Source: Nocardia asteroides
GTDB lineage: Bacteria > Actinomycetota > Actinomycetes > Mycobacteriales > Mycobacteriaceae
Length of the DNA stretch: 64,000 nt
Reading direction: 5' to 3'
Assembly: GCA_019930625.1 (NCBI GenBank)
Contig: CP082844.1
Span: 3,596,001-3,660,000, forward strand
Shown here piece after piece: positions 5,318 to 22,752 of the stretch; the stretch's first letter is position 1; each line of letters opens with the position of its first letter. Position numbers and translations under genes: made by a program. The notes under the pieces were generated by a model. That model was not told the DNA's origin. It saw only the letters and a program-made list of their open reading frames with translations, and did no database searches.

Positions 5318-5337
5318 CACATCCGACAGGAGATACG

Positions 5338-6102
5338 TTGCAGCGCTTACAGGATCGAGTCGCCGTCGTCACCGGCGGCGGGAGCGGTATCGGTCTGGCC
5401 ACGGTCCGTCGTTTCGCGGCGGAAGGGGCGAAGGTGGTGGTCGCCGACATCGACGCGCAGACCGGCAAGGCGGCCGCCGAGGAGGTCGGCGGGCGGTACG
5501 TGCAGGTGGACGTCACCGACGAGGCCCAGGTGCAAGCTCTGTTCCAATCGGCCGTCGACACCTACGGCGGGCTGGATGTCGCGTTCAACAACGCGGGCAT
5601 CTCCCCGCCGGACGATGATTCGATCCTGACCACCGGCCTGGAGGCCTGGCGGCGGGTGCAGGAGGTCAATCTGACCTCCGTGTACCTGTGCAGCAAATAC
5701 GCCATCGGGCACATGCTCGAGCGCGGCAAGGGCTCGGTGATCAACACCGCCTCGTTCGTCGCGGTGATGGGCGCGGCGACCTCGCAGATCTCCTATACCG
5801 CTTCCAAGGGCGGCGTGCTGGCGATGAGCCGCGAACTGGGAGTGCAGTTCGCCCGCAACGGCATCCGGGTCAACGCCTTGTGCCCCGGGCCGGTGAACAC
5901 GCCGCTGCTGCGGGAACTGTTCGCCAAGGACCCGGAGCGCGCCGCGCGGCGACTGGTGCACGTTCCGCTCGGCCGGTTCGCCGAGCCGGAGGAGATCGCC
6001 GCCGCCGTCGCCTTCCTCGCCAGCGACGATTCCTCGTTCATCACCGCCTCCCAGTTCCTCGTGGACGGTGGCATCGCGGGCGCGTACGTGACGCCGCTGT
6101 AG
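5338..6102 (+). CDS. Short-chain dehydrogenase/reductase (SDR)
   Basis: A 254-residue classical SDR. It has the cofactor motif TGGGSGIG, NNAG in DVAFNNAGISPP, and the catalytic Tyr-Lys pair in ISYTASKGG. It begins at TTG 5338 with ACAGGAGA at about 5326-5333 as ribosome binding site, 20 bp after the aldehyde dehydrogenase. It is the fourth gene of the block whose order matches Rv2860c-Rv2857c. Its substrate is not evident; it may act on a carbonyl intermediate of the same amine pathway. Confidence 0.8.
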   Translation: MQRLQDRVAVVTGGGSGIGLATVRRFAAEGAKVVVADIDAQTGKAAAEEVGGRYVQVDVTDEAQVQALFQSAVDTYGGLDVAFNNAGISPPDDDSILTTGLEAWRRVQEVNLTSVYLCSKYAIGHMLERGKGSVINTASFVAVMGAATSQISYTASKGGVLAMSRELGVQFARNGIRVNALCPGPVNTPLLRELFAKDPERAARRLVHVPLGRFAEPEEIAAAVAFLASDDSSFITASQFLVDGGIAGAYVTPL

Positions 6103-6170
6103 GACCGGGGCTTTCTTTTCGGCGCTGCCGCTCGTGAGCCACAGCCCGACACGCACCACATCCGACTTCA

Positions 6171-6186
6171 TGTGACCGGAGTCACA
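6171..6186. promoter_or_regulatory. CRP/GlxR-type palindromic operator
   Basis: TGTGACCGGAGTCACA is a perfect inverted repeat of the form TGTGA-N6-TCACA, the consensus of cAMP-receptor-type regulators (GlxR/Rv3676 in the Corynebacteriales). It lies in the 254-bp gap between the SDR and the MFS gene, about 170 bp upstream of the transporter start. This suggests cAMP-linked control of the uptake gene. The match is read directly from the sequence; binding is inferred. Confidence 0.7.
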
Positions 6187-6356
6187 TACCATCTCGAATG
6201 CGCTGGTCGGAGGCGCGATGTCCGGGCGTTTCGCGGCTCGTGCTGGTTTACCGCCCGCTAATCCTGGGTATCGGTCTGTTTCGTGCCACACCTACGGTCT
6301 GTCGGACCGAGGTGAAACGAACCGAGGTCCGTGGACGGGCTGGAGAGGACGTGCAC

Positions 6357-7697: not shown

Positions 7698-7851
7698 ACC
7701 GCTCCGCACGCGCACATGGCCGCCCATGCGTGGTCTGCGCGGCGATGCGGCGGGTCTGGCTGAGGCGTTGAACGACCGACCCGGAAATGGGTTGGACAGG
7801 CGGTGGCGTGCGGGTGGCCGTCGGGTGGCCGCATCCGGTCCGGCTGTCGGC

Positions 7852-8229
7852 TCACGCGGAAGGCGGTTCGGTGTCGTCGAAGTCCTCGGGCCAGCTGTCC
7901 TCGATGATCAGGCGCCCATCTTCCAGCGCGGTCGTGTACTGGCCTGCGACCACGTCGGCCGGATAGGTCGGCCAGTAGGAGACCGCGCCGGTGGGCTTGT
8001 CGATGACGCAGACGGAACCGCCGACGAACACCGGCGGGCTGCTCGGGTCGGCGTGCGGTGGGCGGGGGAAGGTGGCGACGGCGACGAAGCAGGCGTCGAA
8101 TTCCGTTAGGTGATAGGTGATTCCGCGATCGGTGTAGTCGCCGTTGGTGAGATGGCGGTCGGCGATCAGGTGCGCCTCGCTGAGGTCCACCGGTGTGGTC
8201 GCCTCGGTCGGGTAGGCATGGATGTCCAT
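7852..8229 (-). CDS. Hypothetical protein, possible immunity-like fold
   Basis: A 125-residue acidic soluble protein with no signal peptide or membrane segment. The central part reads FVGGSVCVIDKPTGAVSYWPTYPADVV. A strand pair of the form 'VxVDKxTGxV' recurs in small actinobacterial proteins related to immunity proteins such as Imm35/YrhB, but I cannot assign it firmly. It is alone between the MFS gene and the TetR gene, transcribed toward the MFS gene. No partner toxin is visible nearby. The 154 bp between the MFS stop and this gene's stop show nothing notable. Confidence 0.5.
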   Translation of the reverse strand: MDIHAYPTEATTPVDLSEAHLIADRHLTNGDYTDRGITYHLTEFDACFVAVATFPRPPHADPSSPPVFVGGSVCVIDKPTGAVSYWPTYPADVVAGQYTTALEDGRLIIEDSWPEDFDDTEPPSA

Positions 8230-8313
8230 GAGTAGATGGCGGCTGGGGAGGGGCCGCCGCTCCTTCCGGGTCTCTGGATAACACGGTGGCGGCTCGCCGC
8301 GAGCCGTTTCCGG

Positions 8314-8883
8314 TCAGTCGAACCGGATGGTGGACAGCATCCTGCGGGCGAGGGCCTCCGGATCGGGATCGTCGGCCAGTGACGAATTATGCAGTGCCCC
8401 TTCGCGCCACAGCGAAGCGAAGCCGTGCACCAGTGACCATGCGGCCAGTTGCGTCGCTTGCTGATGGGTACGGTCGTGCTCCGCTTGGATCGCGGAGACG
8501 CCGGAGCGCAGCGCCAGCGCGGAACGCTCGCGCGCCGCGCGCAATTGCGGGTCCTGCGCGTGCAACAGGTTGTGGCGGAACATCACGTCGAAGTGGCCGG
8601 GATGCTCGCGTGCGAAGCGGATATACGCCACCGCGACCTCGCGGAAATCGTCGGCCGCCCGCATGAGCTGTGTGGCCAGCAGGTCGAAACCCTCGGTGGC
8701 CAACGCGGTGAGCAGACCTGCCCGATCACCGAAGTGGTGGGCCGGTGCGGCGTGCGAGACGCCCGCGTGCCGCGCCAGGTTGCGCAGGGAGAGAGCGTCG
8801 ACGCCTTCGGCGGCGATTCGCTCGGCGGCCGCCGTCAGTAGCGTCGCGCGGAGATCGCCGTGGTGATAGCTGTCCTTCGCCAT
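8314..8883 (-). CDS. TetR-family transcriptional regulator
   Basis: A protein of 189 residues starting MAKDSYHHGDLRATLL, the usual N-terminus of a TetR subgroup with a WHG-type C-terminal domain. The helix-turn-helix is in LSLRNLARHAGVSHAAPAHHF. ATG 8883 is chosen by similarity of the N-terminus; ATG 8904 is seven codons upstream. It is divergent from the DoxX-family gene, and the 97-bp space holds mirrored TTGACA elements, so it probably represses itself and doxX. The ligand is unknown. Confidence 0.8.
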   Translation of the reverse strand: MAKDSYHHGDLRATLLTAAAERIAAEGVDALSLRNLARHAGVSHAAPAHHFGDRAGLLTALATEGFDLLATQLMRAADDFREVAVAYIRFAREHPGHFDVMFRHNLLHAQDPQLRAARERSALALRSGVSAIQAEHDRTHQQATQLAAWSLVHGFASLWREGALHNSSLADDPDPEALARRMLSTIRFD

Positions 8884-8911
8884 CCCTCGATGGTGGCCGA
8901 TCATCTAGACA

Positions 8912-8953
8912 TTGACAAGTTGGTGACCGCAGTTCTAATCTTTCCACTGTCAA
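8912..8953. promoter_or_regulatory. Divergent promoter/operator between tetR and doxX-like genes
   Basis: On the plus strand TTGACA (8912-8917) and TCTAAT (8934-8939) with a 16-bp spacer form a good sigma-70-type promoter for the DoxX gene at 8981. TGTCAA at 8948-8953 is the exact inverted copy of the first TTGACA and could be a -35 for the opposite strand or the second half-site of a TetR operator. Seen directly; function inferred. Confidence 0.5.
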
Positions 8954-8980
8954 GTTTGTTCGAACGCACAGGAGATCCCG

Positions 8981-9418
8981 ATGGCACCGCTGGTTGTCCT
9001 CGCCGCCGTCACCGCAATCGCCCGGCTCGTCGGCTGGCTGAGCGGCAACGACTGGCTCGATTCGTGGGCGCACGCGACCGCACTCGGGCTGGCCTCGATG
9101 CTCGTGCTCACCTCGAGCGCGCACTTCCTCCAGCCGCGCCGCGATGCCCTGATCGCCATGGTGCCGCCGCGACTGCCGAACGCGCCCGCATTGGTGACGC
9201 TGACCGGCATCCTGGAACTGGCGGGTGCGGCCGGCGTGCTGATCCCCGCGACCGCTGACGTGGCCGCGGCCTGCCTGATCGCGCTGCTGGTGGCGCTGTT
9301 CCCGGCGAATGTCCGCGCCGCCCGCGCCGGACTGGGCATCAAGACCATGCCCCTGCCCCTGCGGGCACTGGTTCAGGTCCTCTTCATCGGGGCCTGCGTG
9401 GTCGTCATGGTCGGCTGA
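8981..9418 (+). CDS. DoxX-family membrane protein
   Basis: A 145-residue protein with four hydrophobic segments typical of the DoxX/DoxD superfamily, including LGLASMLVLTSSAHFL and LVTLTGILELAGAAGVLIP. It sits in the cytoplasmic membrane. Family members are linked to redox or solute functions, often without a defined reaction. ACAGGAGAT at 8968-8976 supports ATG 8981. A divergent TetR regulator is adjacent, so expression is probably inducible. Confidence 0.75.
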   Translation: MAPLVVLAAVTAIARLVGWLSGNDWLDSWAHATALGLASMLVLTSSAHFLQPRRDALIAMVPPRLPNAPALVTLTGILELAGAAGVLIPATADVAAACLIALLVALFPANVRAARAGLGIKTMPLPLRALVQVLFIGACVVVMVG

Positions 9419-9437
9419 GTACGGCCGAGTACGGCTG

Positions 9438-9481
9438 AAGGCCCGCTCACCCACCGAGAAGATGGTGGATGAGCGGGCCTT
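9438..9481. terminator. Bidirectional terminator hairpin
   Basis: GGCCCGCTCACCCACC (9440-9455) pairs with GGTGGATGAGCGGGCC (9464-9479) across an 8-nt loop with a single internal mismatch, flanked by AAG/CTT. It lies between the convergent DoxX gene and the SDR that ends the PKS operon, so it can serve both strands. There is no long U-run. Confidence 0.7.
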
Positions 9482-9495
9482 CGAGCTGAGGACGC

Positions 9496-10299
9496 TCAGC
9501 CGGAGCGTAGCGCCTTCGCGATGGTGCGCCGCATGAACGGCCGTGCCAGATCCTCGGGCAGGTTCGCCCAGGCCAGGAAGAACCGCGTCAGCGGGTCGAG
9601 TGCGATGTGGTGACGGCCGCGTTCCAAGCCCTGCACGGCGGCCTCGGCGACCCGCTGGGCCGTCATCGGTTCGATCGACCCGGTGATCGCCTTGGTCTCC
9701 ACCGGCTTGCGCTGGTTCTCCATGGCCAGCCCTGGCGTGTCGGTGTCGGCGGGATAGATCACCGTGACGTCCACGCCCTTCGGCTCGACTTCATAGCGCA
9801 GGCACAGCGCCAGCTGCCGGATGGCCGCCTTGGTGGGCCCGTAGGCGGTGTAGCCGGTGATCCCGAGAAACGCCGAAGTCGAGCTGACCAGCAGGATCTT
9901 TCCGCCGCCCCGCTCCACCATGCCAGGCAGCACCCGGCGCACCGCGTGCACCGCGCCGAGATAGTTGGCCGACATCTGCACCTCGAACTCGGCGGCGTCC
10001 ACTTCGAGGAATCGGCCGGGCAGCGCGAGACCGGCGCAGCAGGCGATGACCTCGCACGGCCCGTTGCGCTGCTCCAATTCCGTGATGGCCGAGGCCAGTT
10101 GGTCCGGATGCGTCACGTCTGCGGCGGCCCGGTCCGCGCCCAATCGTTTCGCGGCGTCGCGCAGCGGGAGCTTCCGGCGCGCGATGATCGACACCCGCGC
10201 GCCACGCCGCGCGAAGGCCTCCGCCACCGCGGCGCCGATCCCTTCCGATCCGCCGGTGACGATGACGTGCTTGCCTGCCCAGTCCTCGACCCGTGCCAT
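9496..10299 (-). CDS. SDR, 3-ketodihydrosphingosine reductase-like; last gene of the PKS operon
   Basis: A 267-residue SDR with TGGSEGIG cofactor motif, the catalytic YxxxK in YTAYGPTKAAI and the SSTSAFLG serine segment. Overall layout, including the C-terminal WANLPEDLARPF region, resembles 3-ketosphinganine reductases, which reduce the 3-keto group of the product of serine palmitoyltransferase. It lies 10 bp after the DUF1702 gene in the operon that also encodes an alpha-oxoamine synthase, so I infer that it reduces the alpha-amino ketone made by that enzyme to an amino alcohol. The substrate assignment is inference; the fold is firm. Confidence 0.75.
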   Translation of the reverse strand: MARVEDWAGKHVIVTGGSEGIGAAVAEAFARRGARVSIIARRKLPLRDAAKRLGADRAAADVTHPDQLASAITELEQRNGPCEVIACCAGLALPGRFLEVDAAEFEVQMSANYLGAVHAVRRVLPGMVERGGGKILLVSSTSAFLGITGYTAYGPTKAAIRQLALCLRYEVEPKGVDVTVIYPADTDTPGLAMENQRKPVETKAITGSIEPMTAQRVAEAAVQGLERGRHHIALDPLTRFFLAWANLPEDLARPFMRRTIAKALRSG

Positions 10300-10309
10300 C
10301 GCGCGGTCC

Positions 10310-11272
10310 TCAGGCTCGACTGGCGGTGACGATGTCGGCGATCCGGTCCCGCCACAGCAGGTAGGTGCCGGAGGTGCCGTCGTCGGGCAGGCCGTCGAGC
10401 GAACTCTCGATCAGCGCATCGGTTTTCGCCACGGTGGTGCCGCAGAAGACCCGCGCCGCCGCCTCGCTGTGCTCGTTGACGCTGTTGGTCTGCTGCCGGA
10501 TGCGCGCGACCATGGCCGAACCCAGCGACAGCTGCGGCCGGAATTCACCGGCCATATCCCAGAGCTCCTCCATCGCGGCCGGTTCCACGCCGCCCGCGAA
10601 GGTGACCGCGATGCCGACGCCGCTCCACAGATCGGTGTGGCGCTTCGGGTCGAACTCGTCGATCAGCCGCACGACACCGGCCGGGTTGCCGCCGCCGATG
10701 AACCACAGCGCGCGGCCCATGCCCTGATCGGCGATGCGCTTCAGGTTGTCCCGGTCGCCGAGCCAGCCGGGGTAGCGGGTCTCGACGTGCTTGTCCCGCA
10801 CGTAGCGCTGCATCTGGAAGAACGCTTTGTAGAAGCCGTAGCCGTCGATGGCGAGCCAGCGGAACAGCGGGTGCCGCGGGAACAGCTTCTTCCACCGGAA
10901 CTTCGGGATCTTCGCCATGGCCAGGCCCACTCCCACGTACATGGTCAGGGCGTAGTCGCAGGCCGGCCCGTCGATCAAGTCGGCGGCGCGACGGCCGGGC
11001 GAGAGCGAGTCGATGGCGGTGAGCCCGACCGCGGCGCCCTCGTAGGCGAAGCCGCGGTACTTCGGCGGCACCTGCAGCAGCGCGGCGATCAGCTCCTCGT
11101 TGTCCGAGCTGCGGACCGCGGAGTCGATGCCGCCGACCAGGTGCAAGGTCACCTGCTCGAGTTCCAGCGCGGTGTGCTGGTCGGGCTGCTCGAATCCGCT
11201 GAGCACCATGCGGACACTGGCCGGACTGGGGACGAGCAGGGCCGCGCGCAGCGGACCCAACGGTGAGGGCAT
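10310..11272 (-). CDS. DUF1702 protein, UnbL-type enediyne accessory homologue
   Basis: A 320-residue protein with the DUF1702 signature: YRGFAYEGAAVGLTAID, a DGPACDYALTMYVGVGLAMAK segment, and LAIDGYGFYKAFF. Proteins of this family (UnbL/E3 type) are a hallmark of enediyne gene clusters, where their chemical role is still undefined. No signal peptide or clear membrane helix is seen. Here it lies in an operon with UnbV- and UnbU-like genes but without an enediyne PKS. It begins at ATG 11272, 33 bp after the flavin reductase stop, the largest gap in this operon. Confidence 0.82.
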   Translation of the reverse strand: MPSPLGPLRAALLVPSPASVRMVLSGFEQPDQHTALELEQVTLHLVGGIDSAVRSSDNEELIAALLQVPPKYRGFAYEGAAVGLTAIDSLSPGRRAADLIDGPACDYALTMYVGVGLAMAKIPKFRWKKLFPRHPLFRWLAIDGYGFYKAFFQMQRYVRDKHVETRYPGWLGDRDNLKRIADQGMGRALWFIGGGNPAGVVRLIDEFDPKRHTDLWSGVGIAVTFAGGVEPAAMEELWDMAGEFRPQLSLGSAMVARIRQQTNSVNEHSEAAARVFCGTTVAKTDALIESSLDGLPDDGTSGTYLLWRDRIADIVTASRA

Positions 11273-11305
11273 GGGATCTCCAATCGTCGGGGGAGTATGG
11301 GGTCG

Positions 11306-11800
11306 TCAGAGGAGCAAACGACGGAAGCCGCCGTCGAAGAACGTCAGCGCTCCGGTGGCGGCCGGTTCGGCAGAGCGTTCGGCGTGCACGACCTCACCGA
11401 TCACGATGCTGTGGTCGCCGCTGTCGAAGACCGTGTCGAGCTTGCATTCCAGGCCCGCGGCCGCGTCCGCCAGCATCGGCGCCGCGGTGTGCGGGCCGGG
11501 GAACCACCCGACCCGGTCGAATTGCGCGCTGCCGTCGGGGCGGGTGGAGTCGGCGAAATATCGCGCCACGGCCTCCTGCCGCGCGGAGAGCGCGGAGACG
11601 GCGAACGCGCCCGCCTCGTGGATCGCCCGGTGCAGACGTGCCGTGTGGGCCACGCACACCAGGATCAGCGGGGGATCCAGGGAGACGGACGTGAACGCGT
11701 TGGCGGTCATACCGTGTGGCCGTGGCCACCCGGTGGTGACCACGGTGACACCGGTGGTGAAAGCGCCGAGCCCGCGGCGCAGCTCGGCGCTGTCGGTCAT
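11306..11800 (-). CDS. Flavin reductase-like protein (FMN-binding split barrel)
   Basis: A 164-residue member of the flavin reductase family. It starts ELRRGLGAFTTGVTVVTT and continues PHGMTANAFTSVSLDPPL, the standard flavin-binding region, and ends with a GxxHSIVIGEV segment. It should reduce free FMN or FAD with NAD(P)H and pass it to a monooxygenase or another acceptor. No flavin monooxygenase gene is visible in the operon, so the acceptor may be the RnfD-like membrane protein upstream or an enzyme elsewhere. ATG 11800 overlaps the previous stop as ATGA. Enediyne clusters often carry a comparable flavin reductase. Confidence 0.82.
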   Translation of the reverse strand: MTDSAELRRGLGAFTTGVTVVTTGWPRPHGMTANAFTSVSLDPPLILVCVAHTARLHRAIHEAGAFAVSALSARQEAVARYFADSTRPDGSAQFDRVGWFPGPHTAAPMLADAAAGLECKLDTVFDSGDHSIVIGEVVHAERSAEPAATGALTFFDGGFRRLLL

Positions 11801-12993
11801 GAGCGGGCAGCCTCCGTCACCAGCTCGGCGGGCTCGTCCTCGTCGGGAGCGACGGGACCGGACTGCGCCGGCGCGCTCGGCGCCGCGCCGCGTTGCCGCC
11901 ACCACTCGGCGATGCCGCGTGCCCACCAGTAGACGCCGCGAGCGCCGCAGACGACGACCAGCGCGATGAACAACCCGTAGGAGATGTGCAGCGCGGTGAC
12001 CACGCCGTACATGATGCCGACCGAGGCGCCGAACATGATCTGCTGCTTCTTGCCCGACGGGGTGGTGCCCGGATCGGTGACCATGTAATTGGTGAACAGC
12101 ACGAATGCCAGGCCGGTCATCATGCTCAGGCCGGCCAGGATCGAGATGTTCGGCTCGATGATCCCGCGCACGATGGCCTGGAGTGCGAACGCGCCCACCC
12201 ACGCCATGATCAGCGGCATCTTCAGCGTCAGCTTGGCGTTCAACAGGGTGCCGGTCATCAACAGGCCGAGCACGATGAGCGCGTCCGCCGGGCCGGAGAT
12301 GTACTCGGTGAAGTGGTAGGGCGGCGCGACCGAGATCATCGGGAACACCAGGAAGCACACCACCACGCCGAAGTTCGACGGGTTCATGAAGTGGCGCACC
12401 TTGCCGTTGATCTTGGCGCGCAGCACCCACTTCGTGCCGACAGCGACCACGATGCCGAAGATCACCGGCCACAGCTTGTCGTGGGCGAAGGTCAGGAAGT
12501 TGAACGCCAGACCCGTGATGTGCGCGGGGAGCAGGAACTCGAACAGCCCGCGCGGCCCCCGGCCCAGGAAGGCGGGCGACCGCTTGTACGCCCAGGCCGC
12601 CAGGACTTCCAGCCCGATCTCGGTGGAGTACGCGGTGGCCAGCGCGATGAACGGCCACAGGAACGGTTGCTCGAAGCCGAGCAGCGGGAATCCGATCAGA
12701 TTGAAGATCGTGATCGAGATGGCGAAGTTGCGCAGCGCCAGGTAGCGCGTGTCCTTGGTCGGCGCGGGGGTTTCCACCCACTCCTTGGCGAATTCGGTCC
12801 CCGAACGCTGAACGGCCGAGATGCGTTCGGCGGCCGTCGTTTTGCTCTCCGGGGCAGCGCCGTTGCCTGCCGCGCCGTTGGCGGCCGCGCCGTTGGCAGA
12901 GGCGCTGCCGTTGCCTTCGATCGCCGCGGTTTCGTGCTGCCCGTTCGACGCGGCTGCCGCGTCGCCCGGATCCTTCTTGTCGTTGTCGCTCAT
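11797..12993 (-). CDS. UnbU-type membrane protein, NqrB/RnfD-like
   Basis: A 398-residue integral membrane protein. Residues 1-50 are a low-complexity Ala/Asn/Gly-rich cytoplasmic tail; the rest has about 8-9 transmembrane segments. GKVRHFMNPSNFGVVV and NYMVTDPGTTPSGKKQQ are typical of the RnfD/NqrB superfamily, whose members carry flavin and move electrons through the membrane. The subgroup next to UnbV genes is the UnbU protein of enediyne clusters. It probably transfers electrons for an oxidation or desaturation of the polyketide product (inference). Both ends overlap neighbours as ATGA, so it is translationally coupled to UnbV and to the flavin reductase. Confidence 0.8.
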   Translation of the reverse strand: MSDNDKKDPGDAAAASNGQHETAAIEGNGSASANGAAANGAAGNGAAPESKTTAAERISAVQRSGTEFAKEWVETPAPTKDTRYLALRNFAISITIFNLIGFPLLGFEQPFLWPFIALATAYSTEIGLEVLAAWAYKRSPAFLGRGPRGLFEFLLPAHITGLAFNFLTFAHDKLWPVIFGIVVAVGTKWVLRAKINGKVRHFMNPSNFGVVVCFLVFPMISVAPPYHFTEYISGPADALIVLGLLMTGTLLNAKLTLKMPLIMAWVGAFALQAIVRGIIEPNISILAGLSMMTGLAFVLFTNYMVTDPGTTPSGKKQQIMFGASVGIMYGVVTALHISYGLFIALVVVCGARGVYWWARGIAEWWRQRGAAPSAPAQSGPVAPDEDEPAELVTEAARS

Positions 12994-15002
12994 CGCTGCT
13001 TGACCTCCTGCGCGTTCGAGGCGAGGTTCACGGTGTGCCAGCCCGGCGCGAGCTGGAGGGTTTGTTCGTGCGGGGTGCCGTTGGTCTCCCGCCAGCGCAG
13101 CACGACGTTCAACGGAGCGGCCGGATCGACCTCGCCGAGGCCGATGTGTACCTCGGTGGCGCGCTTGCCGGTGTGCCCGCTACCGCCGTCGAGGTGGCTG
13201 GTGAGCAGGCGACCGTCCGCCGTGCGCACCTCGACCTGGGCGTCCACCGCCGGAACGCCCTGGACCGGAAGGCCGGCCGCCGTCATCGTGGTCGTGGTGC
13301 CCTCCCAGACCGGCTTGAACAGTTTCAGGCCGAGGAACTGGCCGTTGTCCGCCTTGTTGTTGTGGTAGAAGGTCGGATCGCCCCACTGGCGGGCGACGGC
13401 GAAGCTGAGCGCGCCGTTGCCGGAGGTGTCGCCGACGGCTATGCCGCGCGAGGGGATCGGGGTGTCCATGCCGAGCGCGTGGGTGAGGTTGGCGAACTTG
13501 CCGTCGTCACCGCGGCTGAAGAAGCCGACCGGATCGCTGCCCGCCAAGTCGGCGTCCTCGCCGATGATCGGCCAGGACCACGGGTACTTGGTCAGGTCGT
13601 CGTTCATGGTGCCGAGTTCCTGGATCTGCGGCCACCGGTTGACCTCGCCCTTGATCATGCCGGTGGACTGGACCACCTCGTTGCGACCGTCGTTGTCGAA
13701 GTCGTTGATCTTCGCGTCCCAGCCCCAGGTCTCCCAGGCCAATCCGACGTCCGTCGCGCGATTCTCGAACGGCGCGACGCCCTCGGCCAATTGCCGCGCC
13801 GCGTCGGCGGTGTCCTCGGCCGTGTTGTAGAACGCGAAGTGCCCTTCCATCAGAGCGAAGCGCACCGCGATGTTGCTGACGAACAGGTCCGGCATGCCGT
13901 CGCCGTTCATATCGCCGAAGTCGGCCGCCATGCCCTTGTCCGAATCATGGCCCAGCACATACGACTTCGGGTCGGTGAGCCCGCGCTCGCCCTCGGCGAA
14001 TCCGAAGCGGATCCGGCCCGGCGTGGACTCGTTGACGAACAAGCGGTCGCGTCCGAAGTCGTTGGCCACGTACAACTCGGGCAGTTGGTCGCCGTTGAGG
14101 TCGGCCGCGGCCGCCGCCAGCGCCCATCCGGTGTCCATGCCGATCGGGAAGGGGTTGGCCACCTCGCGGTAGTCGGCGGTCGGTTCCTCGCCCGCCTTGG
14201 CGGAGGCCAGGGTGAAGATCCGGTCCTTGCCGCCGTTGCGGGCGTTGGACAGCGAGTCGGTCATCCACAGCGCGAGCTGGCCCTCCTCGGAGAGCACGTC
14301 CATGTCGTTGAAGTACTGGCCCAGGTAGATGTCCGGCTTGCCGTCGCCGTCGAAGTCGGAGACCGAGACCGCCGCGGTGATCCAGCGCTCGCCCTCGTAG
14401 TGCCCGTCGGGGGTGTTCGGCGAAGCGACGATGTCGATCGGGCGGAAGGCCTTGGCGTCCAGGCGGGTGGCGTTGGCGCGCTGCAGGTACAGGATCGGCG
14501 TGCGGCCGTAGTACGACACCAGCGCGTCCATCCGGCCGTCACCGTTGAAGTCGCCGGGAACGCAGCCCGAGGGCACCGTGGACGAATCCGCGGGCAGCGG
14601 CTCGGGGTCGAGCACGAAAGGCTCGTACCGGCTGGTGTTGCTGTCCGGGGTCGGCGTGATGAAGGCCGTGTCCGAGCGGGGATCGACTACGCACAGGTCG
14701 TCCGCCAGCCGGTTGCCGTCGAGGTCGTTCATCGCGATGGCCGCGCCGACCGAGGAGATCCAGGCCGACAGGTGCTTGTACGGTTCGCGCAGCTCACGGA
14801 TCTTGCGGTCGGTCGGCAATCCCTTGGGCAGCGCGATCGGCATCGCGGTGAAGTCGAACTTGCTCGCGATCGGCCCGCCCGCCACGTCGTGCGTCGGCAG
14901 CAGCGCCGAACGCGCGGGAATGAACAGCGAGCCCATCAGCAGCAGGGATACCGCGGGGACCACCGCTTTTCGGAGGACGGATCGGTTGATGGGAATTTTC
15001 AC
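12990..15002 (-). CDS. UnbV-type FG-GAP/VCBS repeat protein with C-terminal ASPIC_UnbV domain
   Basis: A 670-residue exported or membrane-anchored protein. An N-terminal hydrophobic segment (VVPAVSLLLMGSLFIP) follows basic residues. Several FG-GAP/VCBS calcium-binding-type repeats are visible (DLDGNRLADDLCVVD, DFNGDGRMDALVS, DFDGDGKPDIYLG, DLNGDQLPELYVAND, DMNGDGMPDLFVSN, DFDNDGRNEVV), forming a probable beta-propeller. The C-terminal ~110 residues, including GSGHTGKRATEVHIGLG, match the ASPIC_UnbV domain. UnbV proteins are conserved in enediyne clusters with unknown role. The start overlaps the oxoamine synthase stop and the stop overlaps the UnbU start, both as ATGA. Confidence 0.85.
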   Translation of the reverse strand: MKIPINRSVLRKAVVPAVSLLLMGSLFIPARSALLPTHDVAGGPIASKFDFTAMPIALPKGLPTDRKIRELREPYKHLSAWISSVGAAIAMNDLDGNRLADDLCVVDPRSDTAFITPTPDSNTSRYEPFVLDPEPLPADSSTVPSGCVPGDFNGDGRMDALVSYYGRTPILYLQRANATRLDAKAFRPIDIVASPNTPDGHYEGERWITAAVSVSDFDGDGKPDIYLGQYFNDMDVLSEEGQLALWMTDSLSNARNGGKDRIFTLASAKAGEEPTADYREVANPFPIGMDTGWALAAAAADLNGDQLPELYVANDFGRDRLFVNESTPGRIRFGFAEGERGLTDPKSYVLGHDSDKGMAADFGDMNGDGMPDLFVSNIAVRFALMEGHFAFYNTAEDTADAARQLAEGVAPFENRATDVGLAWETWGWDAKINDFDNDGRNEVVQSTGMIKGEVNRWPQIQELGTMNDDLTKYPWSWPIIGEDADLAGSDPVGFFSRGDDGKFANLTHALGMDTPIPSRGIAVGDTSGNGALSFAVARQWGDPTFYHNNKADNGQFLGLKLFKPVWEGTTTTMTAAGLPVQGVPAVDAQVEVRTADGRLLTSHLDGGSGHTGKRATEVHIGLGEVDPAAPLNVVLRWRETNGTPHEQTLQLAPGWHTVNLASNAQEVKQR

Positions 15003-16429
15003 GAGTGCTGCTCCTCATGGGCGAGAGTGAATTGCTGTCCCGCGGTGTCCGCGAGTCCGTCGAGCACCTCGCGCAGCGTGGCCAGCGCTTGGTCCATTTG
15101 CTGCTCGGTGTGCCTGCAGTTGATGAAGAACCGCAACCTGGCCTCCCCGGCCGGGACGACCGGGTGGGTGATGGCGTTCACGCTGAAATCGCGCTGCAGC
15201 ATGGCCAGTGCCGCGAGCACGGCGGGTTCGTCGGCGCCGGTCATGACCGGGATGATCGGCGAATCCGACGACATGCCGATGTCGAAGCCGTATTCCTCGG
15301 CGCGGCGGTGGAAGTACTCGCTGTTGCGCCGCAACTGGGTCACGCGTTCGGGCTCGTCGCGCAGCACCTCGAGTCCGGCCAGTGCCGCGCCGATGGCCGA
15401 CGGGGCGGGGGCGGCGGTGTACATGCTCAATCCACCCGCGACGTACTTGAATCCGTCGACCAGTTCCCGGTTGCCCGCGAGATAACCGCCGACGCTGCCG
15501 AGGGCTTTGGACAGCGTGCCCATCCAGACGTCCACCGCGTCGCCGGGCAGGTCGAACAGCTCACGCACGCCGTGCCCGGTGGCGCCGAGCGTGCCGAACG
15601 AATGCGCCTCGTCGATCATGATCGAGCAGTCGTAGCGCCGGGCCACCTCGATGATCTCGGGCAGCCGGACCACGTCGCCGTCCATGCTGTAGAGGCCCTC
15701 GATGATCACCATGGCCCGGTCGAAGCTGCGGCGCGACATCTTGAGGATGGTCTCGAGCGACTCCGGATCGTTGTGCCGGAAGGAAACCCGCTTGCAGCGC
15801 GACCACTCGGTGCCCGAGACCACGCTGTGGTGGATCAGCGCGTCGCACACCGCGAGATCGCGTTTGCCGAGCAGGAAGCCGACCGCGGCGGCGTTGGTGA
15901 GGTAGCCGCTCGCGGTCACCAGGGCCGCCTCGGTGTCGTAGACGCGGGCGATCTCGGCTTCCAGCTCGCGATAGATCGGCAGCTCGCCCGCCACGATGCG
16001 GACGGCGGCGGCGGAGGTGCCGTACCGATCGATCGCGTCCTTGGCGGCTCGGCGCACCCGCGGGTCGGCGGCCAGGTCCAGATAGCCGAAGCTGCTGAAG
16101 TTGACCACGTCCCGGTCGGCCATCCGCGTCACCGCGCCGCTGATGCCCTCGTGCGGCAGGTAGTACGGGTTGATCAGGCCCACCTGCCGCACCCAGGCGT
16201 CGAATCGCCCGAACCGCTGCCCGGCCTCGAGCACGCCGGGGTGATCACGGAAGGAGGTGTGCGCGGCCCCGCGCGGCGCGGTGCCGCCGTTGGCGGGGGC
16301 CGGGGTGGGGGTGGCGGAGCCGTTCGTAGCTCGTGCGCCGTTGGTCGTCGCCGGGGCGGCGCTGGTCTCACCGCCCGCGTGCCTGGCCAGCAGTGCGCGG
16401 GCCAGCTCCCGGGGGTTGTTGTCGGTCAT
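14999..16429 (-). CDS. PLP-dependent alpha-oxoamine synthase (AONS/serine palmitoyltransferase family)
   Basis: A 476-residue enzyme of the family that joins an amino acid to an acyl thioester with loss of CO2, giving an alpha-amino ketone. The PLP Lys is K308 in TLSKALGSVGG, and D273/H276 lie in IDEAHSFGTLGATGHG. Residues about 20-58 are a flexible Ala/Thr/Asn/Pro-rich segment, absent from plain biotin-pathway AONS; the catalytic core is about 70-460. It starts at ATG 16429, overlapping the PKS stop as ATGA. Because the PKS has no thioesterase, this enzyme is the obvious chain-release catalyst, working directly on the ACP-bound chain. The amino acid (Ser, Ala or Gly) cannot be read from the sequence. 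Biotin synthesis is unlikely in this context. Confidence 0.85.
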   Translation of the reverse strand: MTDNNPRELARALLARHAGGETSAAPATTNGARATNGSATPTPAPANGGTAPRGAAHTSFRDHPGVLEAGQRFGRFDAWVRQVGLINPYYLPHEGISGAVTRMADRDVVNFSSFGYLDLAADPRVRRAAKDAIDRYGTSAAAVRIVAGELPIYRELEAEIARVYDTEAALVTASGYLTNAAAVGFLLGKRDLAVCDALIHHSVVSGTEWSRCKRVSFRHNDPESLETILKMSRRSFDRAMVIIEGLYSMDGDVVRLPEIIEVARRYDCSIMIDEAHSFGTLGATGHGVRELFDLPGDAVDVWMGTLSKALGSVGGYLAGNRELVDGFKYVAGGLSMYTAAPAPSAIGAALAGLEVLRDEPERVTQLRRNSEYFHRRAEEYGFDIGMSSDSPIIPVMTGADEPAVLAALAMLQRDFSVNAITHPVVPAGEARLRFFINCRHTEQQMDQALATLREVLDGLADTAGQQFTLAHEEQHS

Positions 16430-19400
16430 TCGTCCTCGCTCCTCGCCGCGCGCTCTTCTTCCTGGGCAATCTGCTCGGCAATTCGCGCGCCGAGCCCGCG
16501 CAACGTCAGTCCGATCACGGCGAGCACCGATAGCTGGGTGCCGAGCACCTGCACCACGCGGGCCCCGAACTCCATGCCCATCAGCGAGTCCATGCCGAGT
16601 TCGGGCAGCGGGGTGTTCAGGTCCACCGTCTCGGCGTCGACGCCGAGCACCGCGGCGAGCTGTTCGGCGAGCAGGTAGGCCACCACCTCCCCGCGCTGTT
16701 CGACACCCAATCGCAGGATCTCCGCCCGCAGCGCACCCGCGCCCGACGCTCCGCCGCCCGCGGCCGCCACCTGCTCGGCGAAACGCGGCGTGCGGGTGGA
16801 CGGGCGGTGCGCCAGCGCCCACTGGCTCCAGTCCACGTCGAACAGCACGATCTGCGGCAGGTCCAGCCGCAGGCACTCGCCGAGCAGATCGGTGGCCACG
16901 TCCATGTCCACTGAGCGGTAACCGGTCATCTCCGCGTACCGGCTGACCGCCTCGTAGTCGGCCATGCCGCCGCCACCGCTCATGAAGCCCCAGTTCACCG
17001 TCAGTGCGGCCGCGCCACGGGCGCGGCGGGCGGCGGCGATCATGTCGAGCACCGAATTGGCCGCCGCGTAACCGAATTGGGGCGAGATGCCGACAATGCT
17101 GCTCGCCGAGGAGAACAGCACGAACATGTCCAGATCGATGCCGGCGGCGGTCACCGCGGTGTCCAGGTTGACCGCGCCCGCGACCTTGGGCCCGAAGATC
17201 TCCGCCAGCGACTCGACGGTGATCTGCGGGACCTCGAGGTTGTTCACCACACCGGCGGCGTGGAAGATGCCGCGCAACGGACGGCCGCAGGCCTGGATGC
17301 GCTCGATGAGCGCGGCGACGGCGTCGTAGTCGGCCATGTCGATGCGTTCCTCGACGACTTCCACGCCGGCGGCGGCGAATTCGGCGACCGCGGCGCGGGC
17401 CGCGTCCCCCGTGGCGCCGCTGCGCCCGGCAAGCACCAGGCGACGCGCGCCGATCCGCACCAGCCAGCGCGCGGTCGCCAGCCCGAACGCGCCGAAGCCG
17501 CCGGTGACCAAGTAGCTGGCCGCAGGGTCGATCGGCAGGCTCGGCCGCTTCGCCAGCACCGTCGGTTCCGGTTCGCGCAGGTCGAGCACGACCCGGCCGA
17601 TCTGCTTGGACCGCACCACCGTTTCGAACGCCTCGGCGGTCGAATCCAGCGTGAACGCGGTGTAGGGCAGGTAGTCGTAGGTGCCTTCGTTCAAGGCGTC
17701 CATCGCCCGGCGCGCCGCGCGCCGGACCAGTTCGGGACGCACCGCAAGGGCGCGGTCCATGTCGACGGCGAAGAACGACAGATTCCGGTCGAACGGGCGC
17801 AGGTCGATCGCCCCGCCGCCGTAGATGTCGGCTTTGCCGATCTCGACGACCCGGCCGAATTCGGCGGCCACCCGCAGGTTCTGCTGGAGGATTTCACCGG
17901 GGGAGGAGTTGTAGACCACGTCGACGCCGCGCCCGCCGGTCAGCGTGAGCACGTCGTCGACGAAGCTGATCGAGCGTGAGTTGACCACCTCGTGCGCGCC
18001 CGCCGCCGTGGCCACCGCGCGGCGCTCGTCCGAGCCCGCCGTCGCGATCACCCGCGCGCCGAGGCGCACCGCCACCTGGACCGCGGCCATGCCCATGCCG
18101 CCCGCCGCGCCGTGTATCAGCACCGTCTCACCCGGTTGCAGGTGCGCCAGTTCGCCGAAGGCGAATTCGGCGGTGAGGAAGGGCAGCACCGAGCTGGAAT
18201 GGCAGGGGTCGAGCACGGAGTCGGGGTAATTGAGGGGCATCGTGGCTCCCTCGTCGGGCCGGAGTGTGACGTGGCGGCGCAACAGATCCCTGGCGCACAC
18301 CGACATCTGGTCGCCGACGGCGACATCGGTCACCCCTGGACCGACCCGCTCGATCACGCCGAATCCGTCCATGCCCAGCTCGGTGCCGAAATACGTTCCG
18401 GCCAGCTCCTTTTCGGTGAGCACGCCGAGCGCCTTGAGCGCGTCCTTGTAGTTGAGGCCCACCGCGTCCATCCGGATCTCGACCTCACCGGGGCCGGGCG
18501 CGACCCGATCCACCGCGCGCCACGTCAGGTCCGACAACAGCCGTGAGCGCCCGATCTCCAAGCGGAACGAGGTTTCCGGGCCGGTCAGCGGTGCGGCCTC
18601 GTCCCAGACCGCCAGATGGTCGCGCAGGGACTTGCGCAGGTGCAGCGCCCAGCACGCGCCCGCCCGCAACGCGACCTCGTCGGCGCGTCCGTCGCCGAGC
18701 ACCTGCTCGATGATGTCGGCGGCGCGTGTGGCCGGTTCGGTGTCGACCAGTCGCCAGTGCACCGCGGGTTGCTCGTTGCGCAGGGTGCGCCGGGCGCCGG
18801 TGAGCGCCGCCTGCGCCGGATGCGCGAAGGCGTCGATCGGCAGGCAGAACGCCTGCTCGGTGACCACCACGGCGCGTACCTCGGCCGCCGGGGCGTCATC
18901 TTCGTCTTCGCCGACCACCAGCTCGCCGAGCGCCTTGGCGACCAGCGCGAGCCCGTAGGCATTGGGCACCGCGTCCAGCTCGGCGCCGGACACCACGACC
19001 ACGCGGCTGCGTGTCACGCCGGGCCGCTCGTGGGCGGCCCGCAGGGTCGCGAGGACGCGCCGCGCGGCGGCCTCCTCCGGTTCCAAGGTGAGGATCTCCG
19101 ACGCGGCTCGGGCGCTGGCGATTTCCTTCGCGCGCTGGGAGACGGTGCTGCCCAGGCTGATCACGAGCAGGAACTCCTCCGCGCCCACGGGTTCGTCGAC
19201 GGCCGTGGTGTCGTCGACGATGGACCACACCGGCTCGTAGAACAGGCCGTCGAGCTGGTCGTGCAGATCCGGCTCGGCCGCGAGACTGGCGAACCGCACG
19301 CCCGAAAGCGTCAATGCGACACCGCCTTCCGGTGAAGCGACGGTGATGTCGGCGCACAGCGGGTCGCCGTCCACCCGGCGCACCAGCACGACCGCCCGCT

Positions 19401-22400
19401 CCGGCAGCGGCCCGGTCCAGCGGACCCCGGCGACCGAGGACGGCACCACGACGCTCGCGCCGCGCGCGGTCTGGGCGTACAGGGCGGCGAAGCATTGCAG
19501 CGCGGCGTCCACCGCCGCCGGGTGGGCCAGATGCGGCAGGCTCGGCGCGCGACCGGCCAGTGGCGTGAGATCGAGCCGGGCCAAGACGGAGTCGGCCCCG
19601 ACTTGCGCCGCGGTGATCAACCGGAAACTCGGGCCGTAGGCCAGGCCGTGCGCGGCGAGGCCGTCGTACAGCGTCGCCGCCGCCACGTCCACCGCGTCCG
19701 CCGCCGGGGTCAGGTCGATCGTGCGCGCGTCGACGTCGGCCTCGATCAGCCTGCCGTGCGCGTTGACCGTCCAGGTGGTCGCCGTCGCGGCGCGCGAGCG
19801 CAGCGTGAACCGGTGGGTGGTCTCCTCGACGGTGAGGCGCAGTACCGGCACGTCGTGCTGCCCGATCACCAGCGGCGCGACGAACTGCACCGACTCCAGC
19901 CCGAACGTGGTGCGGCCGGTGCGCACCGCGACGGCGCTGAGCGCGGCGTCCAGGTAGGCCGCGCCCGGCAGCACGACCGACCCGTCCACGACGTGATCCG
20001 GCAGCCACGGCAAGGCGGCCACGGACAGCTCGACCTCCCACTCCGGCGCGGACGCCGCCGTGCGCTGACCGAGCATGACGTACCCGTCGACGGCGCCGAC
20101 GCGGTCCGCCTCGATCGCGGGGTCCTCGGTCCACAGCGTGCGGCGCTGCCACGGGTAACGCGGCAGATCCACGTGCGCGACAGGCGTTCGGGGGGCGCCG
20201 GGCGCGCGTGTGGTGTCCAGCCCGCCCACCTGGTACAGCTCGCCCACCGCGCGCAGCAGGTTGTCGCGATCGTCGGCGTCGCGCGACAGCGTGCTGATCG
20301 CCGCGCCGTCGAGGCCGCGGCGCACGAACGCCTCCTTGATGTTGCCGCTGAGCACCGGGTGTGGTCCCACCTCCAGGAACACCCGGTGGCCCGCGTCGAG
20401 CAGGCTGTCAACGGCCGCGCCGAAGCGCACCGGCTCGCGCACGTTTCGGCACCAGTACTCGGCGTCCCAGTCCGGGCCGGACAGTTCGCCGCCGGTGACG
20501 GTGGACCAGATCGGCACGCGCGCGGGCTGCGGCGTGAGGCCGGCCAGCGCCGTGGTGAGGTCGCCGAGGATCGGGTCCATCAGGTGACTGTGGTAGGGCA
20601 CCTCGACACGCAACGCCTTGGCGAAGACGCCTTCGTCGGTGAGTTCGGCCCTGATGCGGTCCAACTCGGTCGAATCACCCGACAGCGTCGCCGCGGAGTG
20701 GCTGTTGACCGCCGCGACGCAGACGCCCTCGACGCCCGCGAGACGCTCGTTCAGCTGCTCCTCCGAGAGCCCGACGGCGAGCATGCCGCCGGTGCCCGCG
20801 GTGGTGGCCTGCAACCGGGCGCGGTGACAACTGACCAGCAGGGCGTCGCGCAGTGACAGCGAGCCGGAGGCGTAGGCCGAGGCCACTTCCCCGACGCTGT
20901 GGCCGACCACCGCGGCGGGGTGGATGCCGGCTTCGGCGAGTTCGGCCAGGAGCGCGGCCTGGACCAGGAAGTTCGCCGGCTGCGCGTACTCGGTCCTGGT
21001 GATCCGCGACTCCTGCTCCGGGCGCAGCAGTTCCTCGACGATCGACCATCCCGCGATCTCGCGGAAGATCTCGTCGATCGACCGCGCGGCGGCGGCGAAG
21101 TGCCCGTCGGCCTCGAGCAGGCCGCGGGCCATGCCCCACCACTGCGGGCCCATGCCGCTGAACACGAATACCGGCCGGGTCGACCCGTCGGTGAGCGCGC
21201 GGACGGGTGTCTTGCCCGCTCCCACGGCGAAATCGGCCAGCTGCGCACGCAGGTCACCGGTATCCCGGTAGGCGAACGCGGCGCGGATCGGATGATGCGC
21301 GCGCTGGACCCACGCGGCCTCGGTCACCACGTCCACGGGGGCGGTCTCGGTGAGGTCGTGCAGATGTGTGGCCATCGTGCGCAGCGCGGTCTCGTTGCGG
21401 GCCGACAGCGGCAGCACGGTGATCGGTGTGCGCGCGGCCTGCGCGGGCGTCGCGGGGACCTCGGGCGCGCGGGTGAGGATCGCATGGGCGTTGGTGCCGC
21501 CGTAGCCGAAGCTGTTGACCGCCACCGCGGCCCGGCCGTCGCCGTTCGGCAGCGGTTCGGTCTCCAGCGGAATGCGTACGCGCAGTTCGTCGAACCGGAT
21601 CTCCGGGTTCGGGTTGTCCAGCCGCAGTTGCGGGGCGATGACGCCGTGGTGCAGGGTCAGCGCGGCCTTGATGACGCCCGCGACGCCCGCGGCGGCCTCG
21701 GTGTGCCCGATGTTGTTCTTCACCGAGCCGACCGGCAGTGGCTCGTCGCGGCCCTCGACCGCGCCGTACACCGCGCCCAGGGCGGCCAATTCGAGCGGGT
21801 CGCCGACCGGCGTGCCGGTGCCGTGCGCCTCCACGAAGCGGATGTCGCGGGCGTCGACGCCCGCCAGCCGGTGCACCCGCCGGGCCAGGGCCTCCTGCGC
21901 GACCGGGTTGGGCACCGGGATGGCCAGCGTGCGGCCGTCCTGGTTGACGCCGCTGCCGCGCACCACCGCGTAGATCCGGTCGCGGTCGCGCACCGCCGCG
22001 TCCAGCGTCTTCAGCACCACGGCGCCCGCGCCCTCGCCGCGCCCGTAGCCGTCGGCGGCCGCGTCGAAGGACTTGCACCGGCCGTCCACCGCGAGGAAGC
22101 GCCCTTTGCACATGGAGATGAACGCCTCGGGCCGCAACATCGCGTTGGCGCCCCCGACGATCGCCGTCTCGCACTCGCCCGCTTCCAGCGCGAGCATCGC
22201 TTGGTGCAGGGCGACCAGGGAGGACGAGCAGGCGGTGTCGATGGTCATCGTGGGCCCGAGCAGGTCCAGCAGGAACGCGATGCGGGCCGACAGCAGCGTG
22301 TGCGAGGAGCTGGTCGGGCTGTGACTGTTGATGGAGGCCCGGGAGATCGAGCCGCTGCGCACCAGCGCGTTGTCGTTCATGAAGCCGCCGACGAACACGC

Positions 22401-22752
22401 CGACCTCACGACCGCTGACCCGGCCCGCCATCCCCGCGTCGTCCAGCGCCTCCCAGGCGACCTCGAGCAGCAGCCGCTGCTGGGGGTCCATGATCGACGC
22501 CTCGCGCTGGGAGATGCCGAAGAACTCGGCGTCGAACTCCCACAGCGACTGGGTCAGGAAGCCTCCGTGCCTGGTGTACATCCGGCCCGGCGCGTCGGGG
22601 TCGGGGTCGTAGAACTTCGCGAGATTCCAGCGGTCCGCCGGTACTTCCACGATCCCGTCGCCCTTGTGCACGACGAGATCCCAGAAAGAGTCCGGCCCGT
22701 CGATGCCGCCCGGAAAACGGCAGCCGATACCGACAATTGCTACATTGGGCAT
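16426..22752 (-). CDS. Type I highly reducing polyketide synthase, KS-AT-DH-ER-KR-ACP, no thioesterase
   Basis: A single-module PKS of 2108 residues. KS about 1-430 (C175 in DTACSSS, H310 in EAHGTGT, H350 in KNNIGHTEAA); AT about 525-820 (S619 in GHSVGE, YHSH at 720-723 at the specificity position, neither the usual malonyl HAFH nor methylmalonyl YASH); DH about 885-1165 (H920, D1082); ER about 1405-1725 (NADPH motif HGAAGGMG at 1547-1554); KR about 1745-1920 (Y1895); ACP about 2025-2100 (S2056 in GMDSL). All reductive sites look intact, so each cycle can give a saturated unit, probably iteratively. ATG 22752 (AGGGG 7 nt upstream) is chosen because the KS begins at residue 4; the frame stays open to 22980. 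No release domain is present. It is the first gene of the seven-gene operon. Confidence 0.92.
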   Translation of the reverse strand: MPNVAIVGIGCRFPGGIDGPDSFWDLVVHKGDGIVEVPADRWNLAKFYDPDPDAPGRMYTRHGGFLTQSLWEFDAEFFGISQREASIMDPQQRLLLEVAWEALDDAGMAGRVSGREVGVFVGGFMNDNALVRSGSISRASINSHSPTSSSHTLLSARIAFLLDLLGPTMTIDTACSSSLVALHQAMLALEAGECETAIVGGANAMLRPEAFISMCKGRFLAVDGRCKSFDAAADGYGRGEGAGAVVLKTLDAAVRDRDRIYAVVRGSGVNQDGRTLAIPVPNPVAQEALARRVHRLAGVDARDIRFVEAHGTGTPVGDPLELAALGAVYGAVEGRDEPLPVGSVKNNIGHTEAAAGVAGVIKAALTLHHGVIAPQLRLDNPNPEIRFDELRVRIPLETEPLPNGDGRAAVAVNSFGYGGTNAHAILTRAPEVPATPAQAARTPITVLPLSARNETALRTMATHLHDLTETAPVDVVTEAAWVQRAHHPIRAAFAYRDTGDLRAQLADFAVGAGKTPVRALTDGSTRPVFVFSGMGPQWWGMARGLLEADGHFAAAARSIDEIFREIAGWSIVEELLRPEQESRITRTEYAQPANFLVQAALLAELAEAGIHPAAVVGHSVGEVASAYASGSLSLRDALLVSCHRARLQATTAGTGGMLAVGLSEEQLNERLAGVEGVCVAAVNSHSAATLSGDSTELDRIRAELTDEGVFAKALRVEVPYHSHLMDPILGDLTTALAGLTPQPARVPIWSTVTGGELSGPDWDAEYWCRNVREPVRFGAAVDSLLDAGHRVFLEVGPHPVLSGNIKEAFVRRGLDGAAISTLSRDADDRDNLLRAVGELYQVGGLDTTRAPGAPRTPVAHVDLPRYPWQRRTLWTEDPAIEADRVGAVDGYVMLGQRTAASAPEWEVELSVAALPWLPDHVVDGSVVLPGAAYLDAALSAVAVRTGRTTFGLESVQFVAPLVIGQHDVPVLRLTVEETTHRFTLRSRAATATTWTVNAHGRLIEADVDARTIDLTPAADAVDVAAATLYDGLAAHGLAYGPSFRLITAAQVGADSVLARLDLTPLAGRAPSLPHLAHPAAVDAALQCFAALYAQTARGASVVVPSSVAGVRWTGPLPERAVVLVRRVDGDPLCADITVASPEGGVALTLSGVRFASLAAEPDLHDQLDGLFYEPVWSIVDDTTAVDEPVGAEEFLLVISLGSTVSQRAKEIASARAASEILTLEPEEAAARRVLATLRAAHERPGVTRSRVVVVSGAELDAVPNAYGLALVAKALGELVVGEDEDDAPAAEVRAVVVTEQAFCLPIDAFAHPAQAALTGARRTLRNEQPAVHWRLVDTEPATRAADIIEQVLGDGRADEVALRAGACWALHLRKSLRDHLAVWDEAAPLTGPETSFRLEIGRSRLLSDLTWRAVDRVAPGPGEVEIRMDAVGLNYKDALKALGVLTEKELAGTYFGTELGMDGFGVIERVGPGVTDVAVGDQMSVCARDLLRRHVTLRPDEGATMPLNYPDSVLDPCHSSSVLPFLTAEFAFGELAHLQPGETVLIHGAAGGMGMAAVQVAVRLGARVIATAGSDERRAVATAAGAHEVVNSRSISFVDDVLTLTGGRGVDVVYNSSPGEILQQNLRVAAEFGRVVEIGKADIYGGGAIDLRPFDRNLSFFAVDMDRALAVRPELVRRAARRAMDALNEGTYDYLPYTAFTLDSTAEAFETVVRSKQIGRVVLDLREPEPTVLAKRPSLPIDPAASYLVTGGFGAFGLATARWLVRIGARRLVLAGRSGATGDAARAAVAEFAAAGVEVVEERIDMADYDAVAALIERIQACGRPLRGIFHAAGVVNNLEVPQITVESLAEIFGPKVAGAVNLDTAVTAAGIDLDMFVLFSSASSIVGISPQFGYAAANSVLDMIAAARRARGAAALTVNWGFMSGGGGMADYEAVSRYAEMTGYRSVDMDVATDLLGECLRLDLPQIVLFDVDWSQWALAHRPSTRTPRFAEQVAAAGGGASGAGALRAEILRLGVEQRGEVVAYLLAEQLAAVLGVDAETVDLNTPLPELGMDSLMGMEFGARVVQVLGTQLSVLAVIGLTLRGLGARIAEQIAQEEERAARSEDE

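Follow-up and report, generated by a model that had tools for sequence, protein, structure and literature searches.

A Nocardia operon in which an iterative polyketide synthase and an oxoamine synthase stand with homologues of enediyne accessory proteins

Two described systems come closest to the operon analysed here, a group of seven genes in a 64,000-nucleotide stretch of the Nocardia asteroides genome (assembly GCA_019930625.1, contig CP082844.1, positions 3,596,001 to 3,660,000; the whole stretch is hereafter the window) encoding an iterative type I polyketide synthase (PKS), an oxoamine synthase (AONS), the proteins UnbV, UnbU and DUF1702, a flavin reductase and a short-chain dehydrogenase/reductase (SDR). 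One is the sphinganine system of Pseudomonas fluorescens, in which the iterative PKS SgaA and the oxoamine synthase SgaB are reported to make C24-C28 sphinganines; SgaB prefers L-serine, the ketone is presumably reduced by an SDR, SgaC, and this logic was reported in 2025 with mutants and an enzyme assay, together with 6,101 SgaAB-like clusters (PMC12134224). As described, sgaA, sgaB and sgaC of P. fluorescens MYb115 resemble the operon in combining an iterative PKS with a serine-palmitoyltransferase-like AONS and a ketodihydrosphinganine-reductase-like SDR. The traits of SgaAB-like membership, namely a PKS beside an AONS, an AONS akin to serine palmitoyltransferase and a KDSR-like SDR, were all found in the operon, where a single-module PKS adjoins the oxoamine synthase as it does in the SgaAB-like sphinganine clusters. 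The words "enediyne", "alkyne", "polyene", "flavin" and "nocardia" each occur 0 times in the main text of the Pseudomonas report (PMC12134224), which makes no mention of Unb genes.

The other system is the gene set common to ten enediyne clusters that have been compared, E3, E4, E5, E and E10 (PMC5181780). Genes of the DUF1702 and flavin-reductase types are drawn beside enediyne PKSs in Phytohabitans (PMC7692728), the enediyne PKS (PKSE) with its thioesterase is reported to give a heptaene, and the cassette is reported to make both an anthracene precursor and the enediyne core, iodine being essential for the anthraquinone-fused members (PMC9464397, PMC8725005). The operon shares with this cassette UnbV, UnbU and DUF1702, which are homologous to proteins encoded beside PKSE genes, and differs from it in that a PKS of another kind, with an oxoamine synthase and an SDR, takes the place of the PKSE (E). 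We take E3, E4 and E5 to be DUF1702, UnbV and UnbU, respectively; on this mapping E3, E4 and E5 of an enediyne cluster are present in the operon and the enediyne PKS (E) is absent from it, while for E10/TEBC the seven genes leave no space for a further gene, although no dedicated search for it was made. Later enediyne work reportedly obtained an iodoheptaene and a diyne from the cassette.

An earlier note on this DNA had proposed a PKS-made sphingoid-like lipid. Its pathway logic is backed by the similarities to serine palmitoyltransferase and to the ketodihydrosphingosine reductase TSC10 and by the Pseudomonas precedent, but its novelty has been overtaken, since such a lipid is already published. 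What is new is that three of the five genes of the enediyne PKS cassette, on the mapping assumed above, accompany a gene set of this kind; the literature searched, which most subscription journals lay outside, yielded no paper that connects Unb proteins with a PKS other than the enediyne type. We lean slightly towards reading the locus as a Nocardia sphingoid-lipid operon that took in the non-PKS part of the enediyne cassette, with the Unb proteins oxidising the chain.

Organisation and conservation of the operon

The seven genes lie on the minus strand between positions 9496 and 22752 in the order PKS, AONS, UnbV, UnbU, flavin reductase, DUF1702 and SDR (Table 1), and coordinates, Pfam assignments and junctions all confirm the gene content, order and span proposed earlier. 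Neighbouring genes overlap by 4 bp at each of the first four junctions (PKS/AONS, AONS/UnbV, UnbV/UnbU and UnbU/flavin reductase), and the last two intergenic gaps measure 33 bp (flavin reductase/DUF1702) and 10 bp (DUF1702/SDR), so that the genes form one coupled operon. All were assigned by Pfam above cut-off except UnbU, which scored 22.5 bits against NQR2_RnfD_RnfE, below the 27.7-bit cut-off.

Named genomes were scanned with a UnbV alignment, and the locus counts given here refer to the best 80 of 291 matching loci. The top 23 of these 80 are all from Nocardia and have the same gene set and order, with proteins 50-96% identical. AONS, UnbU, DUF1702 and SDR are each found in 23/23 and the PKS in 21, the contig ending at that place in the other two (L040 and L042); counting these two, contig ends truncate the PKS or AONS in four loci (L040, L042, L046 and L054). 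Such recurrence of gene set and order in all 23 is more than chance. The co-occurrence of DUF1702, UnbV and UnbU with an AONS and a non-enediyne PKS, which the earlier note had proposed to look for, was thus found in the named Nocardia loci, except that in two of them the place of the PKS lies beyond the contig end. By the operon proteins, Nocardia abscessus and its allies are the nearest named relatives (UnbV 94%), and in an order-level sample of 397 genomes every UnbV match outside the window's genome is at most 51% identical.

The flanks of the operon in the window are common to 15 of the 23 loci, in all of which a TetR regulator stands beside the operon. They were not found at the other eight (L048-L055), apart from one TetR match about 6 kb off in L049, and the conserved unit is therefore six or seven genes, not the region.

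Table 1. Coordinates of the operon genes and of the adjoining regulator in the window
Feature	Position	Strand	Basis
Iterative type I PKS, KS-AT-DH-ER-KR-ACP, 2108 aa	16426..22752	-	Pfam
Pyridoxal-phosphate oxoamine synthase (AONS), serine-palmitoyltransferase-like, 476 aa	14999..16429	-	Pfam/NCBIfam
UnbV, 670 aa, FG-GAP repeats and C-terminal UnbV_ASPIC, N-terminal hydrophobic segment	12990..15002	-	Pfam
UnbU, 398 aa, membrane protein, RnfD/NqrB fold	11797..12993	-	Predicted structure
Flavin reductase, 164 aa	11306..11800	-	Pfam
DUF1702/UnbL, 320 aa, all-alpha	10310..11272	-	Pfam, E 3.4e-109
SDR like 3-ketodihydrosphingosine reductase, 267 aa	9496..10299	-	TSC10 match in PDB
TetR-family regulator adjoining the operon, outside the conserved core	8314..8904	-	Pfam

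The window's genome comprises 7.4 Mb in two contigs, and the window has a G+C content of 68.6%. A plus-strand open reading frame of 145 aa (window positions 8981-9418), without a Pfam match, adjoins the operon, at 69-92% identity, in 15 of the 23 loci from Nocardia.

The operon proteins and the enediyne clusters

The domain order of the operon PKS agrees with the earlier claim that it lacks the enediyne layout, and neither a loading module nor a thioesterase domain was found in it by Pfam. The catalytic residues of its KS (Cys/His/His), AT (Ser/His), DH (His/Asp), KR (Ser/Tyr/Asn) and ACP (Ser) are invariant across the 22 operon-type PKSs compared, wherever a row has a letter (20 to 22 rows per residue), and all 22 also have the nucleotide motif of the ER. 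A PKSE near the cluster, the counter-case named in the earlier note, was sought genome-wide with whole and C-terminal queries, and no full PKSE was found in the window's genome. The whole query (1975 aa) matched many KS-AT regions and in some cases residues 1100-1450, as any PKS would, and nothing past residue 1448; its last 525 residues gave no match there at E <= 1e-20. Queried with PKSE, 20 of the 23 loci from Nocardia matched only in the KS-AT of the operon's own PKS (28-33%), and L050 and L051 matched at 30-31% over about 185 aa further along that PKS, most likely the KR.

Among the other 57 of the best 80 loci, UnbU was found in 57, DUF1702 in 47 and flavin reductase, a further likeness between enediyne-type loci and the operon, in 40; some PKSE match occurred in 55 (not in L067 and L077) and the C-terminal part of PKSE in 52, and none had an oxoamine synthase or a KDSR-like SDR of the operon type. 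The same separation appears in a genus sample of 150 genomes, 45 of which contain UnbV at E <= 1e-50: identity to the window's UnbV splits them into 35 genomes at 56-100% (its own included) and 13 at no more than 48%, with three in both groups. The 35 were classed by UnbV type, the whole operon being verified in the named loci. When the C-terminal 525 residues of PKSE were searched for at E <= 1e-20 in these 35 and five other genomes, 32 of the 35 gave no match, and the three positives coincided with the three genomes that carry an enediyne-type UnbV as well; all three enediyne Nocardia genomes serving as controls were positive. The 23 named loci and these 32 genomes bear out the occurrence of Unb proteins outside enediyne clusters, as the earlier note had held.

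When operon and enediyne rows are compared, 143 positions of UnbV, 78 of UnbU and 42 of DUF1702 are conserved in at least 95% of the rows of each kind, whereas fixed differences number 4, 6 (one of them a gap position) and 5, respectively. Since common positions are many and fixed differences few, the Unb chemistry is probably the same in the operon as in enediyne clusters. In trees drawn with midpoint roots, operon-type rows fall on one side of a single branch for UnbV (24 rows, SH-aLRT 100), DUF1702 (24 rows, 100/99), UnbU (21 rows, 100/100) and flavin reductase (10 rows, 100/99), and judged by these alignments the operon Unb proteins are a clade separate from their enediyne relatives. The UnbV and DUF1702 trees omit L024 and L026 (twins of L045 and L051), L027 and L085; the UnbU and flavin reductase trees omit L024, L026, L027, L036, L037 and L039; and the position comparison omits L024, L026, L027, L032, L033, L085, L115 and L116.

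The predicted structure of UnbU matches RnfD/NqrB. UnbU has in common with these membrane flavoprotein subunits the fold and a TDP..T.P stretch; however, SGAT, presumably their covalent flavin mononucleotide motif, is not seen in the UnbU consensus, and the operon, in contrast to Rnf/Nqr systems, contains no other Rnf/Nqr-type gene. Flavin reductase is intact in nine of the 23 named Nocardia loci, fragmentary in six and undetected in eight, and the operon flavin reductases cluster with those of some enediyne-type loci (100/97), so that the gene probably arrived with the Unb set and is now being lost. The fragments, of differing lengths, lie between UnbU and DUF1702 in L036, L037, L039, L040, L046 and L047, which are close relatives of the window.

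The oxoamine synthase has as its best solved relatives the serine palmitoyltransferases 8guh and 3a2b (248.7 bits each). Its N-terminus carries a conserved motif, RELARALLARH, followed by a variable linker (alignment of eight sequences), and the two are possibly a docking peptide for the PKS. Operon-type AONS form one clade (23 rows, 100/100) with long branches nearby, in a tree that omits L024, L026 and L040. The second-best solved match of the SDR is TSC10 (8jat; E 5e-26, residues 6-235), and several of its homologues carry the source name 3-dehydrosphinganine reductase.

Of 20 further UnbV regions fetched, mostly divergent, 17 have a PKSE match, the other three being L251, L255 and L267, and an oxoamine synthase was found in none of the 20. 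In L255 (G950, 8915-18338) UnbV and UnbU directly adjoin stand-alone (type II) ketosynthase genes, a methyltransferase and an epimerase, and that genome has no match to the PKSE C-terminal part; Unb proteins may therefore work with several kinds of PKS. The UnbV region L251 lies about 35 kb from a PKSE of the same genome, to which it may belong. In another Nocardia genome (G484), locus L267 (6245-13735) carries DUF1702, UnbV and UnbU with TetR, methyltransferase and MFS genes; no PKS match was found within 14.8 kb up to the contig end, and a separate PKSE locus, L268, is present in the same genome. Four tandem DUF1702 genes lie between MFS transporters and a flavin-dependent-halogenase-like protein in L033 (G011, same genus; 8467-12366), with no UnbV or UnbU match in 20 kb, and in L032 (G055, 4339-16984) three DUF1702 matches surround a YcaO-domain protein, close to a GMC oxidoreductase; this stretch, too, gave no match to UnbV or UnbU.

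Related PKS-AONS pairs and the origin of the operon

Sixty relatives were surveyed for the oxoamine synthase, and a match at E <= 1e-100 was found in 23, all within the genus. Fifteen paralogous Nocardia stretches (14 genomes) all contain a PKS 47-53% identical to that of the operon and, adjoining it on the same strand as in the operon, an AONS 47-51% identical, whose match begins at or before query residue 7 in 12 of the 15. They differ from the operon in lacking any match to UnbV, UnbU, DUF1702 or flavin reductase at E <= 1e-3 and in having a GNAT acetyltransferase, which turned up neither in the window nor in any of the 23 operon loci. Homology places this GNAT in all 15 stretches (14 beside the PKS, one distal), and gene calling recovers it in 11, of which 10 are adjacent. 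The SDR has weak matches (25-34%) in four of the 15; in L212 an SDR lies just downstream on the opposite strand. The sister genus, probably Rhodococcus judging from the names, gave a match in 7 of 118 genomes, with the PKS-AONS pair in all six stretches fetched and an adjacent GNAT in one. These GNAT-PKS-AONS loci (L212-L226 in Nocardia, L234 in the sister genus) may make N-acylated amino ketones, and the GNAT of the paralogous loci fits an amine product. Because the operon AONS form one clade (100/100) within a wider PKS-AONS family without Unb genes, the Unb set and the SDR appear to have joined a PKS-AONS unit once in Nocardia, the direction of change being our interpretation.

Proposed pathway, alternatives and significance

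In the proposed pathway the iterative PKS, with the domains listed in Table 1, would assemble an ACP-bound acyl chain. The oxoamine synthase, which its N-terminal motif may hold in place, would then condense the acyl-ACP with an amino acid by decarboxylation to give a 3-keto-2-amino product; that it releases the chain with an amino acid is a strong inference, and the preference of SgaB and the similarity to serine palmitoyltransferase point to serine as the most likely one. The SDR, for which there is precedent, would turn the ketone into an amino alcohol. UnbV, UnbU and DUF1702, to judge from their conserved residues, would carry out an oxidation of the hydrocarbon chain at the membrane, most probably with the same chemistry as on the enediyne polyene, in which case an enyne, alkyne or halogenated chain would be expected. 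Reduced flavin would come from the flavin reductase, which another in the cell could replace, since the gene is lost or decaying in many loci. The membrane redox step that the earlier note had assigned to the Unb and flavin proteins together thus keeps its plausibility for UnbU, through its modelled RnfD/NqrB fold, and for UnbV, through its predicted N-terminal hydrophobic segment, but not the obligatory part of the flavin reductase, which is intact in only nine of the 23 loci. An alkyne is the boldest and least supported outcome, because the PKS keeps its ER and no polyene intermediate is evident. Taken further, UnbV-UnbU-DUF1702 would be a portable chain-oxidising module (alkyne-forming, possibly halide-assisted) independent of the enediyne PKS, Nocardia would use it to produce sphingoid bases of acetylenic or enyne type, and in another lineage UnbV-UnbU appears to go together with a type II PKS; we put this extension forward tentatively, as a serious possibility that is still more doubtful than not.

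Several observations weigh against the sphingoid-lipid reading with chain oxidation. The pocket stretch of the oxoamine synthase, NFSSFGYLDL, departs from NFSSNDYLGL, which we take to be the BioF motif; the top solved match of the SDR is not TSC10 but an SDR of unstated function; DUF1702, for which no solved structural relative was found, has none that hints at any reaction; and an ER kept in 22/22 PKSs could, by its sequence, leave the chain saturated and hence offer no polyene to the Unb proteins.

The last of these points, together with the electron-carrier type of membrane fold of UnbU, is also what favours the idea that a sphingoid amino alcohol is made while UnbV, UnbU and DUF1702 do another job, such as desaturation, hydroxylation, halogenation, or membrane handling or export, and no paper on the roles of individual Unb proteins was found in the literature searched. 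However, the strong conservation in common with the enediyne homologues and the very few fixed differences argue that they act in the same way on an unsaturated chain of similar kind, and we regard such another job as rather unlikely. It is also conceivable that the product is not sphingoid at all and that the alpha-amino ketone is left unreduced, cyclised to a pyrrole or pyrazine, or used in another scaffold: oxoamine synthases also feed amino-ketone products besides sphingoid bases, and the SDR belongs to a large family, with the best solved match already mentioned. Against this stand the presence of the SDR in 23/23 loci, its TSC10 match over most of its length and the GNAT of the paralogous loci, which fits a free amine, and a non-sphingoid product therefore appears improbable. 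A decayed or rearranged enediyne cluster, or an accessory set serving a PKSE elsewhere in the genome, would explain why enediyne loci contain homologues of UnbV, UnbU, DUF1702 and flavin reductase alike; yet the C-terminal PKSE searches, with their 32 negative genomes, three explained positives and three positive controls, and the open condition of all genes other than flavin reductase (50-96% identical) make this explanation very hard to sustain.

The operon bears on a wider problem. To our knowledge, how E3, E4 and E5 help to convert a polyene into the enediyne core is a long-standing question, made hard by the great reactivity of the products. Here, homologues of these three proteins can be met in another lipid pathway, probably a less reactive one, and the related PKS-AONS loci without Unb genes are natural controls. 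If the proposed pathway is true, the function of the Unb proteins would become directly readable from the operon, and a new class of modified sphingoid lipid would be recognised in a genus with many human opportunists. The presence of such helper proteins, in many Nocardia species, in what looks like a gene set for a sphingosine-like lipid suggests that the poorly understood helper chemistry of enediyne clusters also acts on other molecules.

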